This document shows positions 1 through 40,290 of a stretch of 49,688 nucleotides of DNA, piece by piece (position 1 is the first letter of the stretch; every line of letters starts with the position of its first letter). The notes beneath the pieces are model-generated. The model worked only from the letters and a program-made list of their open reading frames with translations. It ran no database searches and was not told the origin of the DNA. This DNA comes from an uncultured Pseudomonadota bacterium (lineage in GTDB: Bacteria > Pseudomonadota > Alphaproteobacteria > UBA9219): the NCBI GenBank assembly GCA_903875345.1, contig CAIQVS010000136.1:1-49688 (forward strand), in the 5' to 3' direction. A program made the translations under genes and the position numbers.

Positions 1-37
1 TCCCCCTTCAGGGGGAGAGGGGTTGGGGTGAGGGGGC
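1..37 (-). repeat. REP-like hairpin+tail repeat, left copy (truncated by window edge)
   Basis: The reverse complement of 1-37 (gccccctcaccccaacccctctccccctgaaggggga) matches 395-431 at 36 of 37 positions. Confidence 0.9.
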
Positions 38-351
38 CAACGTATGACATCGCCCCCCAATTCAGCCAAAATCATTTCCGCAACGCCTTCCGTATTCCTC
101 AGAATATCCGTATTCCAGAAATGAATAATACGCCAGCCTCGACTTTCCAAATAGGCCGTTCGTTTGTCGTCATGCACGTTATCGGCATGTTGTCCACCAT
201 CAGCTTCAACAATCAGACGATGCTCAATACAAGCAAAATCGGCGATATAGGCATCAATCGGATGCTGCCTTCGAAATTTGTAGTTTTGCAGCTGGCGACT
301 CCGTAACACAGCCCACAATCTTCGCTCAGCGTCCGTTGGTTGTCGCCGCAT
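1..351 (-). CDS. DUF559 domain protein (Vsr-like / PD-(D/E)XK-type endonuclease fold), partial, runs off the left edge
   Basis: Manual translation of the minus strand from ATG at 351: MRRQPTDAERRLWAVLRSRQLQNYKFRRQHPIDAYIADFACIEHRLIVEADGGQHADNVHDDKRTAYLESRGWRIIHFWNTDILRNTEGVAEMILAELGGDVIRWPPHPNPSPPEGG, open for 117 codons to position 1. The A-E-x-x-L-W-x-x-LR start, the D-F-x-C ... E-A-D-G-x-Q-H motif and the R..L...G..I..FWN...L.N motif are typical of DUF559. Not in the ORF track. Confidence 0.88.
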   Translation of the reverse strand, partial: MRRQPTDAERRLWAVLRSRQLQNYKFRRQHPIDAYIADFACIEHRLIVEADGGQHADNVHDDKRTAYLESRGWRIIHFWNTDILRNTEGVAEMILAELGGDVIRWPPHPNPSPPEGG

Positions 352-394
352 GGAGCGGGCTTTCTTTATATTGACCGGCGGTCTTTTTGGCACT

Positions 395-438
395 GCCCCC
401 TCACCCCAACCCCTCTCCCCCTGAAGGGGGGAGAGGGG
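395..438 (+). repeat. REP-like hairpin+tail repeat, right copy
   Basis: Tail gccccctcaccccaa (395-409), then perfect 12-bp stem cccctctccccc (410-421) / gggggagagggg (427-438); inverted relative to the copy at 1-37. Confidence 0.9.
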
Positions 439-467
439 CCTCGCGGCAAATCTCCGTTAAAACCCTG

Positions 468-1814
468 CTATGCCTGTTTTCCTGTCAACAAGGCATGTGC
501 CCGTTCCTCGCCGATCATCGGCAAAAGGATTTTCATTTCCGGACCATGATCGACGCCGGTCAGCGCGAGGCGCAGGGGGCGGAACAAATCCTTGCCCTTG
601 CGTCCGGTTTTTTCCTTCACCGCATTCGTCCAGCACGTCCATGTGGTTTCATCCCAAGGCTTGGCGGGCAGCAACGCGGCGGCGGCGGCGACAAAATCCG
701 GCTCGGTCACGACCGGTGTCACGGGACCATGCGCGACATGCCACCACGTGCCGATGTCGCTCAGTTTTTCCAGATTGGCGCGCATCGCGACCCAGAAAGC
801 ATCATCGATCATCGACAGATTCATCGCCTGCAAGCGATCTTTCACGGCGGCAAAGGGCGTGTGATGCAGGATTTTGGCGCTCAGATGCTGCAGTTCGGTC
901 AAATCGAATTTCGGCGTCGCGCGCGAGATTTTGCCCAGATCGAATTCCCCGGCCAATTCTTCCAAAGTCAAATGCGGCGTGATCGCATCCGAAGTGCCGA
1001 GTTTGGCGAGCAACGCGTTAATCGCCATCGGCTCGATCTGCATCTCGTCGCGCATGCTGGCGATGCTGAGTGTGCCGAGCCGCTTGCTCATCTCGATGCC
1101 GGTGGCGCTGACGATAAGCGGGAAATGCGCGAAGATAGGCGGCGCGACCGAGGTAATGCCCCGCCAGATTTGAATCTGCACGGCGGTATTGGTGACGTGA
1201 TCCTCGCCGCGAATGATGTGCGTGATGCCGAAATCGATGTCATCGACGACCGAGCAATAGGTGTAGAGCGGCACGCCGTCCTCGCGCACCAGAACCGGAT
1301 CGGACAGCGAGGCGGCGGGAAAGCTCTTGTGCTTCTGGATCACATCGTCCCAGACGACGTCGGTATGTTCCAATTTGAAACGCCAGTGCGGTTTCCTGCC
1401 CGACGCGATCAGCGCGGCGCGATCGGCGTCCGTGAGCTTCAACGCGGCGCGGTCATAGACGGGAGGCAGACCGCGTCCCAACTGCGTCTTGCGTTTTAGA
1501 TCAAGCTCGGCCTGCGTTTCAAAACAAGGATAAACCCGTCCCGCCGATTTCAACTGCTCCAGCACTTCGGCATAGCGATTGAGGCGATCCGATTGCCGTG
1601 CGAAAGCATCCCATGTCAGGCCGAGCCATTTCAGATCACGGTCAATGGCGCTGGCGAAGGCGGGCGTCGAGCGTTCCTGATCGGTGTCGTCGAGGCGCAG
1701 CATGAAACTGCCGCCGTATTTCCGCGCAAACAGGTAATTAAACAAGGCGGCGCGGATATTGCCGATATGCAGCAAACCCGTGGGCGATGGAGCGATGCGA
1801 ACTTTGATTGTCAT
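468..1814 (-). CDS. gltX: glutamyl-tRNA synthetase
   Basis: 448 aa; class I signature [37 protein letters not shown], and KMSKR-like IEMSKRLGT. Confidence 0.95.
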
Positions 1815-3853: not shown

Positions 3854-4786
3854 ATGCCCGATCTTTCGATCATCCTTCCTTTTCATAACGAAGCAAACAG
3901 CGTGCGGCAGTTGCTGCATCGCCTCTATCCGGTTTTGGGAAGCCTGTCGCTGAGTTACGAGATCATCTGCGTGGACGATGGCAGCGTCGACGCAACCTTC
4001 GCCGCCTTGCGGCATGAGCGCGATCTTGATCAGCGCATCAAGCTGGTGCGCATGGCGCGCAATTTCGGCAAGGAAGCAGCGTTGACGTGTGGCCTACAAC
4101 TGGCGACGGGACGCGCCGCGATTACGATGGACAGCGATCTGCAGCACCCGCCGGAAGTTATTCCGCAGTTGATCGAGAAATGGCGCAATGGAGTCGAGCT
4201 GGTTTACGCCGTGCGCCGCAACCGCAATGCCGATGGCCAGATGCGCCGTTGGCTGTCGCAGGCTTTTTATGCCGTGTTCCGCACGATTGCCGAAATCAAA
4301 TTGCCCGCAGGCGCCGGGGATTTTTGCTTGCTGGATCGCAAAGTGATCGATGCCGTCAACGCCCTGCCCGAGCGCAACCGATTCATGAAGGGACTCGTCG
4401 CCTGGGTTGGTTTCCATCAAGACGTCGTTCCCTTTGATGTCGCGCCACGGCAGGATGGGGCGTCGCACTGGAATTTCTTCAGGCTTATACGTTTTGCGTT
4501 CGACGGGCTTTCCGGGTTCAGCACTTTGCCGCTTCGCATCTGGACATGGGGGGGCGTTCTGGTGTCATGCGCGGCGCTAGCTTACGGTGGGTATCTGACC
4601 TTGCGCACCTTGATTTTCGGTACTGACGTTCCGGGCTACGCCTCAATGATGGTCGGCATCCTGTTCCTCGGCGGCATTCAATTGCTCAGCCTCGGCGTCA
4701 TAGGAGAATATCTCGCTCGCGTCGTAACGGAAGTAAAAGCTCGGCCTATTTTCTTTGTGGCTGAACGCGTCGGTTTTGACTCCTGA
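3854..4786 (+). CDS. Family 2 glycosyltransferase (DPM1/bactoprenol-glycosyltransferase-like) with C-terminal TM helices
   Basis: 310 aa; LSIILPFHNEANSV, EIICVDDGSVDAT, ITMDSDLQHPPE; two hydrophobic C-terminal segments. Confidence 0.9.
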   Translation: MPDLSIILPFHNEANSVRQLLHRLYPVLGSLSLSYEIICVDDGSVDATFAALRHERDLDQRIKLVRMARNFGKEAALTCGLQLATGRAAITMDSDLQHPPEVIPQLIEKWRNGVELVYAVRRNRNADGQMRRWLSQAFYAVFRTIAEIKLPAGAGDFCLLDRKVIDAVNALPERNRFMKGLVAWVGFHQDVVPFDVAPRQDGASHWNFFRLIRFAFDGLSGFSTLPLRIWTWGGVLVSCAALAYGGYLTLRTLIFGTDVPGYASMMVGILFLGGIQLLSLGVIGEYLARVVTEVKARPIFFVAERVGFDS

Positions 4787-4915
4787 GAGCAAAAACCGAC
4801 AAAACGCATACGATCGTATTGTAAAAACAGCTTTAAACGAGGGGAAATTCATCTTCCCCTAACACTCTTTATGCAATCTTGGGTTGTATTTATTCTCTCA
4901 ACCCCGTGACCGACG

Positions 4916-6319
4916 ATGGCTTCTGCTACTACGGTACTTCTTGTCGAAGACACAGCGCCGCTGGCGTTGATGTATGAAGAGTATTTGCGCGCTCCGGCAC
5001 GGCGGATCATCACGGCGCCGACAGGTCGTGAAGCAATAGCGGCGCTGGACGCACGTTGTCCCGATGCCGTCGTTCTGGATTTGCTGCTGCCGGATATGAA
5101 TGGCTTGGAGATTCTCGATCACGCTCGCAAACTGTATCCGCATTTGCCGGTGATCGTCGCCACGGTTACCAATTCCGTCGATGTCGCGGTCGAGGCGATG
5201 CGGCTCGGAGCCTATGATTACATCGTCAAACCTTTCTCCGCCACGCGCTTGATCACGACGTTGCATCGCGCGCTGGAGCACAAAGAACTGAAAACCGAAG
5301 TCAAGGAATGGCGTCAGATGGTGGGACGGGATCGTTGCTACGATTTCGTCGGCCAATCACCCGCAATGCAAGCGATCTACCGCATCATCGACTCCGTCGC
5401 GCCGAGTAAGGCAAGCGTTTTTCTATGCGGCGAGAACGGAACCGGAAAGGAAATGGCCGCTGCCGCCCTCCATCAAGCGAGTCCACGCCGCAACAAACCT
5501 TTCGTTCCCATCAACTGCGCCGCCATACCGCCGGAGCTGATGGAAAGCGCGATTTTTGGTCATAAGAAAGGCGCATTCACCGGCGCGATCAGCGACCATC
5601 CGGGAGCGGCGAAAGCAGCGCACGAAGGAACGTTGTTTCTTGATGAAATTTGCGACCTGCCGATAGAATTGCAGACCAAGTTGCTGCGATTTGTTCAAAC
5701 CGGCGAAATCATGCCGGTCGGGGGCAGTCGCGCCGAGCTGGTCGACATTCGCTTCATCGTCGCCACCAACCGTGCTCCAGCCGAGGAAATGGCACAACGC
5801 CGTTTCCGCGAAGATCTTTATTATCGGTTGCACGTGGTGCCTATTGAAATGCCGCCATTGCGCGAACGTGGCGACGACGTCCTGATTTTGGCGAGCCATT
5901 TCCTTGCCCGCTTTAACGCTGAGGAAAGCAAAAGTTTCTCCAGCCTGTCGCCCGAAGTGATGAGCGTCTTTCGCCGTTACGAATGGCCGGGCAATGTCCG
6001 TCAGCTGGAAAACACCTTGCGAAGCATTGTTGTACTGAACGATGACACTACAGTGACGATGAACATGCTGCCGAAGGAGCTGAAACAGTTCGCCGAAACG
6101 AACCCTACATCGGCAGCAAATCAGAATACGTCTATTGCTGATCTTGTCGTGATTGCCGCCGGTCAAAACGCCGTCAAGCCCCTGTGGCAAACCGAGAAAG
6201 AAGCGATCATCAATGCGCTTGACCAGACCGGGCAAGACATTCCCCTCGCCGCAACGTTGCTGGAGGTCAGCCCGTCAACGCTTTATCGCAAACTGCAATT
6301 ATGGAAAAGCGTGGGATAG
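4916..6319 (+). CDS. Sigma-54-dependent response regulator (REC-AAA+-Fis HTH)
   Basis: 467 aa; VVLDLLLPDMNG phosphoacceptor, Walker A GENGTGKE, GAFTGA loop, LFLDEICDLP, C-terminal AATLLEVSPSTLYRKL HTH. Confidence 0.93.
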   Translation: MASATTVLLVEDTAPLALMYEEYLRAPARRIITAPTGREAIAALDARCPDAVVLDLLLPDMNGLEILDHARKLYPHLPVIVATVTNSVDVAVEAMRLGAYDYIVKPFSATRLITTLHRALEHKELKTEVKEWRQMVGRDRCYDFVGQSPAMQAIYRIIDSVAPSKASVFLCGENGTGKEMAAAALHQASPRRNKPFVPINCAAIPPELMESAIFGHKKGAFTGAISDHPGAAKAAHEGTLFLDEICDLPIELQTKLLRFVQTGEIMPVGGSRAELVDIRFIVATNRAPAEEMAQRRFREDLYYRLHVVPIEMPPLRERGDDVLILASHFLARFNAEESKSFSSLSPEVMSVFRRYEWPGNVRQLENTLRSIVVLNDDTTVTMNMLPKELKQFAETNPTSAANQNTSIADLVVIAAGQNAVKPLWQTEKEAIINALDQTGQDIPLAATLLEVSPSTLYRKLQLWKSVG

Positions 6320-6407
6320 ATGTCCTACGTTTTTTAATAGATTTTTTAGGCTCTTTAGTATAGAATTGTGGCGTAATTACGAAGAGTGAAAATTGTAGGA
6401 AAATTCA

Positions 6408-7166
6408 ATGTCCGAAACTAATAGAACTATTGAGGTTCTTAGCCAACAGGAGTTAGGGCGCCTTTCGGATTCACCGCCGATTTTGGCCCCCATAGAGGGC
6501 GATTTAGGGCGTGTCAAACTGGCTTCAAGTACTTTGGCGATTCCCTCAGAATCAGGAAAAGAGACGGCCACTATTACTAAACTTTCTACCTACAGCGATT
6601 TGTGCGTTGTAGGATATTATTATGGGCCAAGTCCATGTTTCAAAATTAATCAGGAATCGCTGCGGACTTTTCTTGAGGGGGATCGCAGCGTATCCGAAAG
6701 AGGCGGCCAAGATAACGTTTCAGTTTTATTGTCGACAAGACTTCCATCTTATAATATTGCACAGTTAAGCAATAATAGAGATGTTATAGTGAGCGTGTAC
6801 GCGATGGCAGATCTTTCACCAGAAGATGCTGTGGCTATCGTGGGGCACGAGCGGGGGCATGCTTATTATTTCCACGAGAAACAAAGGCCGGGACTGATAG
6901 ACATGCTTAAAACACCAGACATGGTTAGGAAACAAGAGGTGGTTGCCGCTATCCGGGGTCAAGAGTTCGCAGCGGATTGCTGGGCAGGTCGAAGAAAAGG
7001 TCTGGGGGCGCTCAGAGTGATACATGCCTTGGTCAACGCGTCGGCACTGGCGGCAAAAGAAATGGGACAAATCGTTTATGATGGAGACTGGACTCACCCA
7101 GGTCTTCTTGACAGAGCAAACCACATTAGGTCGTGCGTACAAGAAGTAAGCTCGAGTGCCCCATAG
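6408..7166 (+). CDS. Putative zinc metallopeptidase-like protein (M48-type motif set), orphan
   Basis: 252 aa; AIVGHERGHAYYF (HExxH), GQEFAADCWAGRRKG (E..AD), WTHPGLLDRANHI (HP..R). Confidence 0.6.
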   Translation: MSETNRTIEVLSQQELGRLSDSPPILAPIEGDLGRVKLASSTLAIPSESGKETATITKLSTYSDLCVVGYYYGPSPCFKINQESLRTFLEGDRSVSERGGQDNVSVLLSTRLPSYNIAQLSNNRDVIVSVYAMADLSPEDAVAIVGHERGHAYYFHEKQRPGLIDMLKTPDMVRKQEVVAAIRGQEFAADCWAGRRKGLGALRVIHALVNASALAAKEMGQIVYDGDWTHPGLLDRANHIRSCVQEVSSSAP

Positions 7167-40085: not shown

Positions 40086-40120
40086 TGTGTGCCCCCTTTA
40101 TCGAAAAGCGCGGTGGGATT

Positions 40121-40156
40121 CCCCTCCCCTCGCGGGAGGGGATAGGGGTGGGGGAG
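40121..40156 (+). repeat. REP-like hairpin+tail repeat (ruvB-ruvA spacer, copy 1)
   Basis: Stem cccctccc/gggagggg (40121-40128/40134-40141) followed by tail ataggggtgggggag. Confidence 0.85.
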
Positions 40157-40206
40157 CGAGGTTTGGAGCTTGATATACGAATTGGCAATGTACTCACTTA
40201 GTTTGT

Positions 40207-40242
40207 CTCCCCCCTCCCTAACCCTCCCCGCGAGGGGGAGGG
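40207..40242 (-). repeat. REP-like hairpin+tail repeat (ruvB-ruvA spacer, copy 2, inverted)
   Basis: Tail ctcccccctccctaa (40207-40221) then ccctcccc...ggggaggg stem; near reverse complement of copy 1. Confidence 0.85.
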
Positions 40243-40290
40243 AACTCCACCGTTCTATTTGGCAAGCGGAATTCCCGAAATACAATAAGC

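Follow-up and report, generated by a model that had tools for sequence, protein, structure and literature searches.

Since the 1990s, short palindromic repeats of the BoxC type, later named PIT and TM-ECO, have been on record in E. coli (PMC4666352). Holder et al. (2015) reported 23 BoxC-type copies in strain K-12, with five inverted A/B pairs, and 3610 copies across 262 proteobacterial genomes; no mobility gene was found near the repeats, and no agent of their spread was known (PMC4666352). The published consensus, CCCTCNCCC-N3-6-GGGNGAGGG-N3-GGGNGAGGG, has 9-nt arms and is matched by the E. coli copies; it is also similar to the repeats described below, which likewise form inverted pairs of two loop types (PMC4666352). 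Judged by their sequence pattern, in which a C-rich and a G-rich arm are accompanied by a further G-rich block that could supply a third strand, our repeats are members of this BoxC/PIT/TM family. They differ from the published set in that many sequence variants lie outside the consensus (the copy at our locus has longer arms and a second loop of 2 nt) and in that a gene encoding a DUF559 protein is located between the repeats across phyla, whereas the earlier work found no mobility gene nearby (PMC4666352).

In their organisation the repeats are also similar to the REP/REPIN elements associated with RAYT: each is a short palindrome with a one-sided tail, they exist as single and as inverted-pair copies, and one nuclease gene is found between inverted repeats. 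However, the enzyme is a PD-(D/E)XK protein of the DUF559 type (PF04480) and not a Y1 (HUH) nuclease, and the repeats show no link to Y1. Further, the GTAG/CGTC tag at the foot of the palindrome is absent, and the tail, TTGGGGTGAGGGGG, mirrors the hairpin arm in the manner of a triplex. EDxHD/Vsr-like homing endonucleases such as I-Bth0305I have a homologous profile and fold, and units in frame within two kinds of coding gene add to this likeness; the unit described here, in contrast, is usually intergenic and has multi-copy repeat ends, and no intron or intein was seen. An insertion sequence with a DDE transposase and MITEs differs in that the unit contains DUF559 alone and no DDE transposase gene. 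Finally, E. coli YcjD and the protein of PDB entry 3hrl (NGO0050) are DUF559 relatives without assigned function, and ycjD adjoins a BoxC-type repeat.

The stretch of DNA analysed here (the window, 49,688 nt) is an entire contig of an uncultured alphaproteobacterium, contig C136. Its first 438 nt contain the unit under study, and a related gene-less copy is located further downstream:

1-37, plus strand: left terminal repeat, consisting of the purine arm of a hairpin and a G-rich tail toward the gene; exact 36-nt inverted match
1-393, minus strand: DUF559 nuclease gene (ORF; PF04480), domain at 58-366, with the D and ExDG active-site residues present
395-438, minus strand: right terminal repeat, a perfect 12-bp hairpin (410-438) and a triplex-type tail toward the gene
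40104-40257, no strand assigned: MITE-like copy of the sister variant that lacks the gene, made up of two hairpin-plus-tail repeats in inverted orientation with inward tails; outer motif AAGCGCGGTGG...CCACCGTTCT
40120-40142, plus strand: left-repeat hairpin of this copy, 9-bp stem, mirror tail score 1.0
40222-40242, minus strand: right-repeat hairpin of this copy, 8-bp stem, mirror tail score 1.0

The first-pass annotation had described a 37-nt inverted pair, identical at 36 of 37 positions, and this was confirmed: positions 2-37 and 395-430 match exactly over 36 nt and position 1 is mismatched. The perfect stem of the right copy was also found as described, at 410-438 (CCCCTCTCCCCC / GGGGGAGAGGGG, 12 bp without mismatch), followed by the tail facing the gene. 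The palindrome had been placed on the outer side of each copy, which holds for the right one; the outer arm of the left copy is lost, because the window is the entire contig and the contig end cuts the repeat. Since no hairpin-plus-mirror-tail unit arose when the window was shuffled five times by mononucleotides, a chance origin of the repeat units is excluded.

DUF559 is the only gene within the 438-nt unit, and its assignment is clear, with two profile matches to PF04480 (E=3.9e-37 and 1.1e-38). The minus-strand DUF559 ORF noted before stands, probably with a different start codon. As the ATG at 351 originally chosen lies inside the Pfam match, which starts at 366, the GTG at 393 is the likelier start, and initiation at ATG 351 would cut the domain. 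From GTG 393 the ORF comprises 131 aa, runs through the left repeat and is open at the contig end. In a PADLOC search the window protein had a single weak match (E=0.0014), and two sister proteins had none. An Rfam search of window positions 1-600 gave four sub-threshold matches to unrelated families, which were treated as chance.

In 60 aligned DUF559 proteins the residues E14, R33, Q34, D43, E54, D56 and G57 are invariant. The predicted structure (pLDDT 90.9) has its best PDB matches in 3hrl and in the homing endonuclease I-Bth0305I, and matches Vsr more weakly; the likeness to I-Bth0305I (PDB 3r3p) has an E value of 1.8e-4 for the profile and 1.4e-5 for the fold. YcjD was assigned earlier to the PD-(D/E)XK superfamily (PMC1189080). 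Profile, active-site residues and predicted fold together identify DUF559 as a PD-(D/E)XK nuclease similar to Vsr and the EDxHD homing endonucleases, and not as a RAYT.

The G-rich tail of the repeats indeed faces the gene, as annotated, and its reading was revised to the third strand of a potential triplex in a BoxC/PIT/TM repeat. The tail matches its own purine arm with a mean of 0.860, compared to 0.779+-0.005 (sd) when tails are swapped among loci (n=209), and the sequence on the outer side of the hairpin matches the arm at 0.62. In the window, the right copy and the copy at 40104-40257 both reach a mirror-tail score of 1.0. Since the tail mirrors its own hairpin arm, each repeat represents an intrastrand-triplex motif, in which the tail is the potential third strand.

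A search of the whole source genome (3.12 Mb, 454 contigs) with a 22-mer of the window repeat, allowing up to three mismatches, revealed no site beyond the two flanking the gene; the notion of a dispersed family therefore did not hold for this exact repeat, which has not spread in its own genome. A sister variant gave 75 matches there, several of them as pairs, and 0 in a reversed-sequence control. This variant belongs to two further DUF559 genes of the same genome (contigs C70 and C191), which are likewise flanked by inverted repeats, and it occurs once in the window, within the gene-less pair at 40104-40257. The gene-less copies and the DUF559 units of this genome have an outer motif near CCACCGCTCTT in common.

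The expectation that DUF559 genes lie beside such repeats more often than other genes was borne out at the locus level. For each DUF559 gene, and for control genes located nearby on the same stretches, we compared the two 200-bp flanks and scored their best inverted match, using a cut-off score of at least 18. In genomes of the window's class this score was reached at 36 of 61 DUF559 genes and at 0 of 745 controls, in other surveyed genomes at 53 of 79 DUF559 loci and at 0 of 376 controls. The 79 loci are from named GTDB genomes of several phyla, including Chloroflexota, Desulfobacterota and Nitrospirota, and the two sets apparently overlap in part (for example, L139 and L150 look like contigs of genomes G096 and G081). 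DUF559 genes without flanking repeats, which had been named as evidence against a link, exist to a marginal extent: at 17 of 141 no repeat was detected within 300 bp. Co-diversification of repeat and protein was considered and set aside, the tracking of repeat by protein sequence distance being weak (Mantel r=0.14, p=0.01). Downstream of the units some neighbours recur, namely ruvA-like starts at L006, L034 and L200 and carB at L074, L077 and L176 (named by eye).

At the genome level we analyzed 190 genomes of the window's class. DUF559 was present in 25 of 28 genomes with at least four repeats and in 39 of the remaining 162 (odds ratio 26, uncorrected for phylogeny), while Y1_Tnp (PF01797) was present in 7/28 and 38/162, respectively (odds ratio 1.1, p 0.81). 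After adjustment for genome size, with kinship ignored, p was 7e-9 for DUF559 and 0.21 for Y1. In 104 genomes of at least 3.9 Mb, which we call Enterobacteriaceae from the centre genome of the set, that of L166 ([Erwinia] mediterraneensis), 22 of the 26 with DUF559 had at least ten repeats, compared to 4 of the 78 without (odds ratio 102, likewise uncorrected for phylogeny).

These data bear on the possibility that the repeats are conventional REP/REPIN elements whose movement depends on RAYT or on some other Y1 transposase. The REP-like size, the inverted pairing and the one Y1_Tnp gene of the source genome would fit; however, the 190 genomes show no Y1 link before or after adjustment, and it is DUF559, not Y1, that sits between the repeats. 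We consider this explanation highly improbable, and RAYT/Y1 was rejected as the mover. In contrast, the position of the gene between inverted repeats across many phyla and the nearly constant presence of DUF559 in repeat-rich genomes suggest that DUF559 probably spreads the BoxC-type repeats.

Alternatively, DUF559 could be a passenger of repeats that spread by replication slippage, by template switching at hairpins or through another enzyme. In line with this, repeats persist in a few genomes without detected DUF559, among them G042 with 34 copies, G216 with 83 and G275 with 49; repeat abundance without the gene, a second point raised beforehand against a link, is thus marginal. Tandem-like repeat spacings in G195 suggest slippage-type amplification, and catalysis by DUF559 is putative. 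On the other hand, the active site is invariant, two independent samples both show a very strong association, with none for Y1 in the one tested, and DUF559 was the only gene found between tail-inward pairs at 141 loci, chosen for DUF559. We therefore regard a passenger role as unlikely, and return to DUF559 as the probable agent. The spacings in question are found in G195, the genome of L166, on its contig C1 near 0.2-1.2 kb, 1006.8-1007.9 kb and 3745-3746 kb, with tandem-like steps of approximately 53-54 bp, and elsewhere of approximately 103 and 187 bp.

The survey of pairs covered 1.81 Mb around these 141 DUF559 genes and counted gaps below 600 bp only. Tail-inward pairs fell into two classes: 49 had gaps not exceeding 93 bp and lacked DUF559, and 64 had gaps of 314-586 bp and contained it; among gaps below 600 bp in these DUF559-chosen loci, no long tail-inward pair lacked the gene. 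Dispersed single and inverted-pair copies are present in the source genome and in others. In genome G014, the two ends of the DUF559 units differ from each other, and the gene-less copies show this same combination of ends; one of these copies encloses a truncated DUF559. In G037, high-copy paired copies of 108 bp have outward tails and a sequence unlike the ends of its own DUF559 units; many such copies are also present in G191, while the tails of DUF559 units point inward.

Sites lacking the unit in relatives, which the first-pass annotation had proposed to look for, were found in part. One gene-less copy of G037 is absent from the orthologous locus in G190, G165, G193 and G194. The ruvA locus (named from sequence) lacks the DUF559 unit in G147, which is related to G014. 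One degenerate hairpin is left there, and loss is thus as possible as gain. No clear target-site duplication was seen at the two junctions read, fepB-entC and ruvA. Based on these presence/absence differences, whose direction is not established, repeats and units appear to be mobile. At a further locus in G147, L257, flanking matches are located at query positions 290-696 and 836-1495.

In E. coli, ycjD (b1289) is a DUF559 gene with a BoxC-type repeat between it and fabI. In this K-12 region (L205, 3041-3407) a second DUF559-like C-terminus (METVLENIRQGLNR) is found between ycjD and the repeat, and NZ_CP041627.1 has an annotated IS1 element in its ycjD region (1404669-1406233). In many E. coli strains ycjD is replaced by the eef operon (PMC12817139). 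The three ycjD-less strains that were read carry the TetR/RND (eef) operon at this position; there is therefore no clean empty site, and ycjD was rejected as such. The fepB-entC region is variable in another way: a 186-bp stretch with a BoxC-type pair is present or absent among E. coli genomes. At least 80% of the K-12 query was found in 2752 genomes, and the stretch is missing in four shorter genomes that were read. Located between two iron-uptake genes (L242, 2011-2386), this pair could affect their expression. The tktB-ypfG site was rejected as a simple insertion, as some strains have a BoxC-type repeat and others a different palindromic repeat there.

It is also conceivable that the repeats serve as sites of regulation or as substrates for a DUF559 enzyme that works for the host, in triplex or mismatch repair or in a restriction-like manner, and that they flank its gene for control rather than for mobility. 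Hairpins can terminate transcription, and the Vsr fold is that of a mismatch endonuclease. Further, VsrA, a DUF559 protein of Caulobacter, causes an SOS response upon loss of cytosine methylation (PMC12907096). However, the dispersed gene-less pairs have the same ends as the DUF559 units, the 186-bp pair at fepB-entC is present in some strains and absent in others, and whole units exist in frame inside priA-like and peptidase-like genes. Moreover, the E. coli repeats had no promoter or terminator activity in work cited by Holder et al. (PMC4666352). A host service of this kind seems to us quite improbable.

In view of the flank association, the genome-level link to DUF559 and not to Y1, the gene-less pairs and the presence/absence differences, a non-RAYT analogue of REP-RAYT, as suggested by the first-pass annotation, is the best reading. 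It had also held that DUF559 may process or spread the repeats; the associations at locus and genome level and the signs of mobility speak for this, and the protein may nick, bind or move the repeats. We consider it probable that the 438-nt unit is a minimal mobile element of a widespread family, in which a DUF559 nuclease gene lies between inverted BoxC/PIT-type repeats and the spread occurs via DUF559. Only tentatively, and with somewhat more doubt than conviction, we propose that DUF559 represents a novel kind of transposition nuclease: a PD-(D/E)XK enzyme acting alone would recognise triplex ends and drive BoxC-type spread across phyla, including E. coli K-12.

Such a process could begin with the repeats in single-stranded form, as may arise on a replicating strand, where they could fold into an intrastrand triplex. 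The DUF559 protein would recognise the folded end and cut or nick there, after which host replication and repair could place a copy of the unit, or of a shortened form that lacks the gene, at a different site. Single repeats and pairs without the gene would be non-autonomous offspring, as REPINs are to RAYT. We infer the agent, its action on the folded end and all chemical steps. To our knowledge, no strand-transfer activity has been described for a nuclease of approximately 110-130 aa, and host factors must therefore be assumed.

In the open-access literature, judged mostly by title or abstract and including few subscription journals and no preprints, we found no published link between DUF559 and such repeats. 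The link provides a concrete candidate agent for BoxC-type spread, testable in E. coli K-12 with ycjD, and suggests a likely role for a large protein family whose function was not known. If true, it carries the REP-RAYT concept over to triplex-forming DNA and to an enzyme with an unrelated fold.

Several units are located inside coding genes. In L173 (titled Gastranaerophilales) and L142 (uncultured), a whole unit is in frame within a PriA-like gene, just before the Walker A motif; the frames extend around 4295-6926 and 4286-6920, respectively, and the gene was named from reading the sequence. In L141 and L164 a whole unit is in frame within a peptidase-like gene, named in the same way. These recurrent sites hint at a homing-type element, which is suggestive only. 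In the in-frame units, the repeats encode linkers such as PSPQPSPARGEG.
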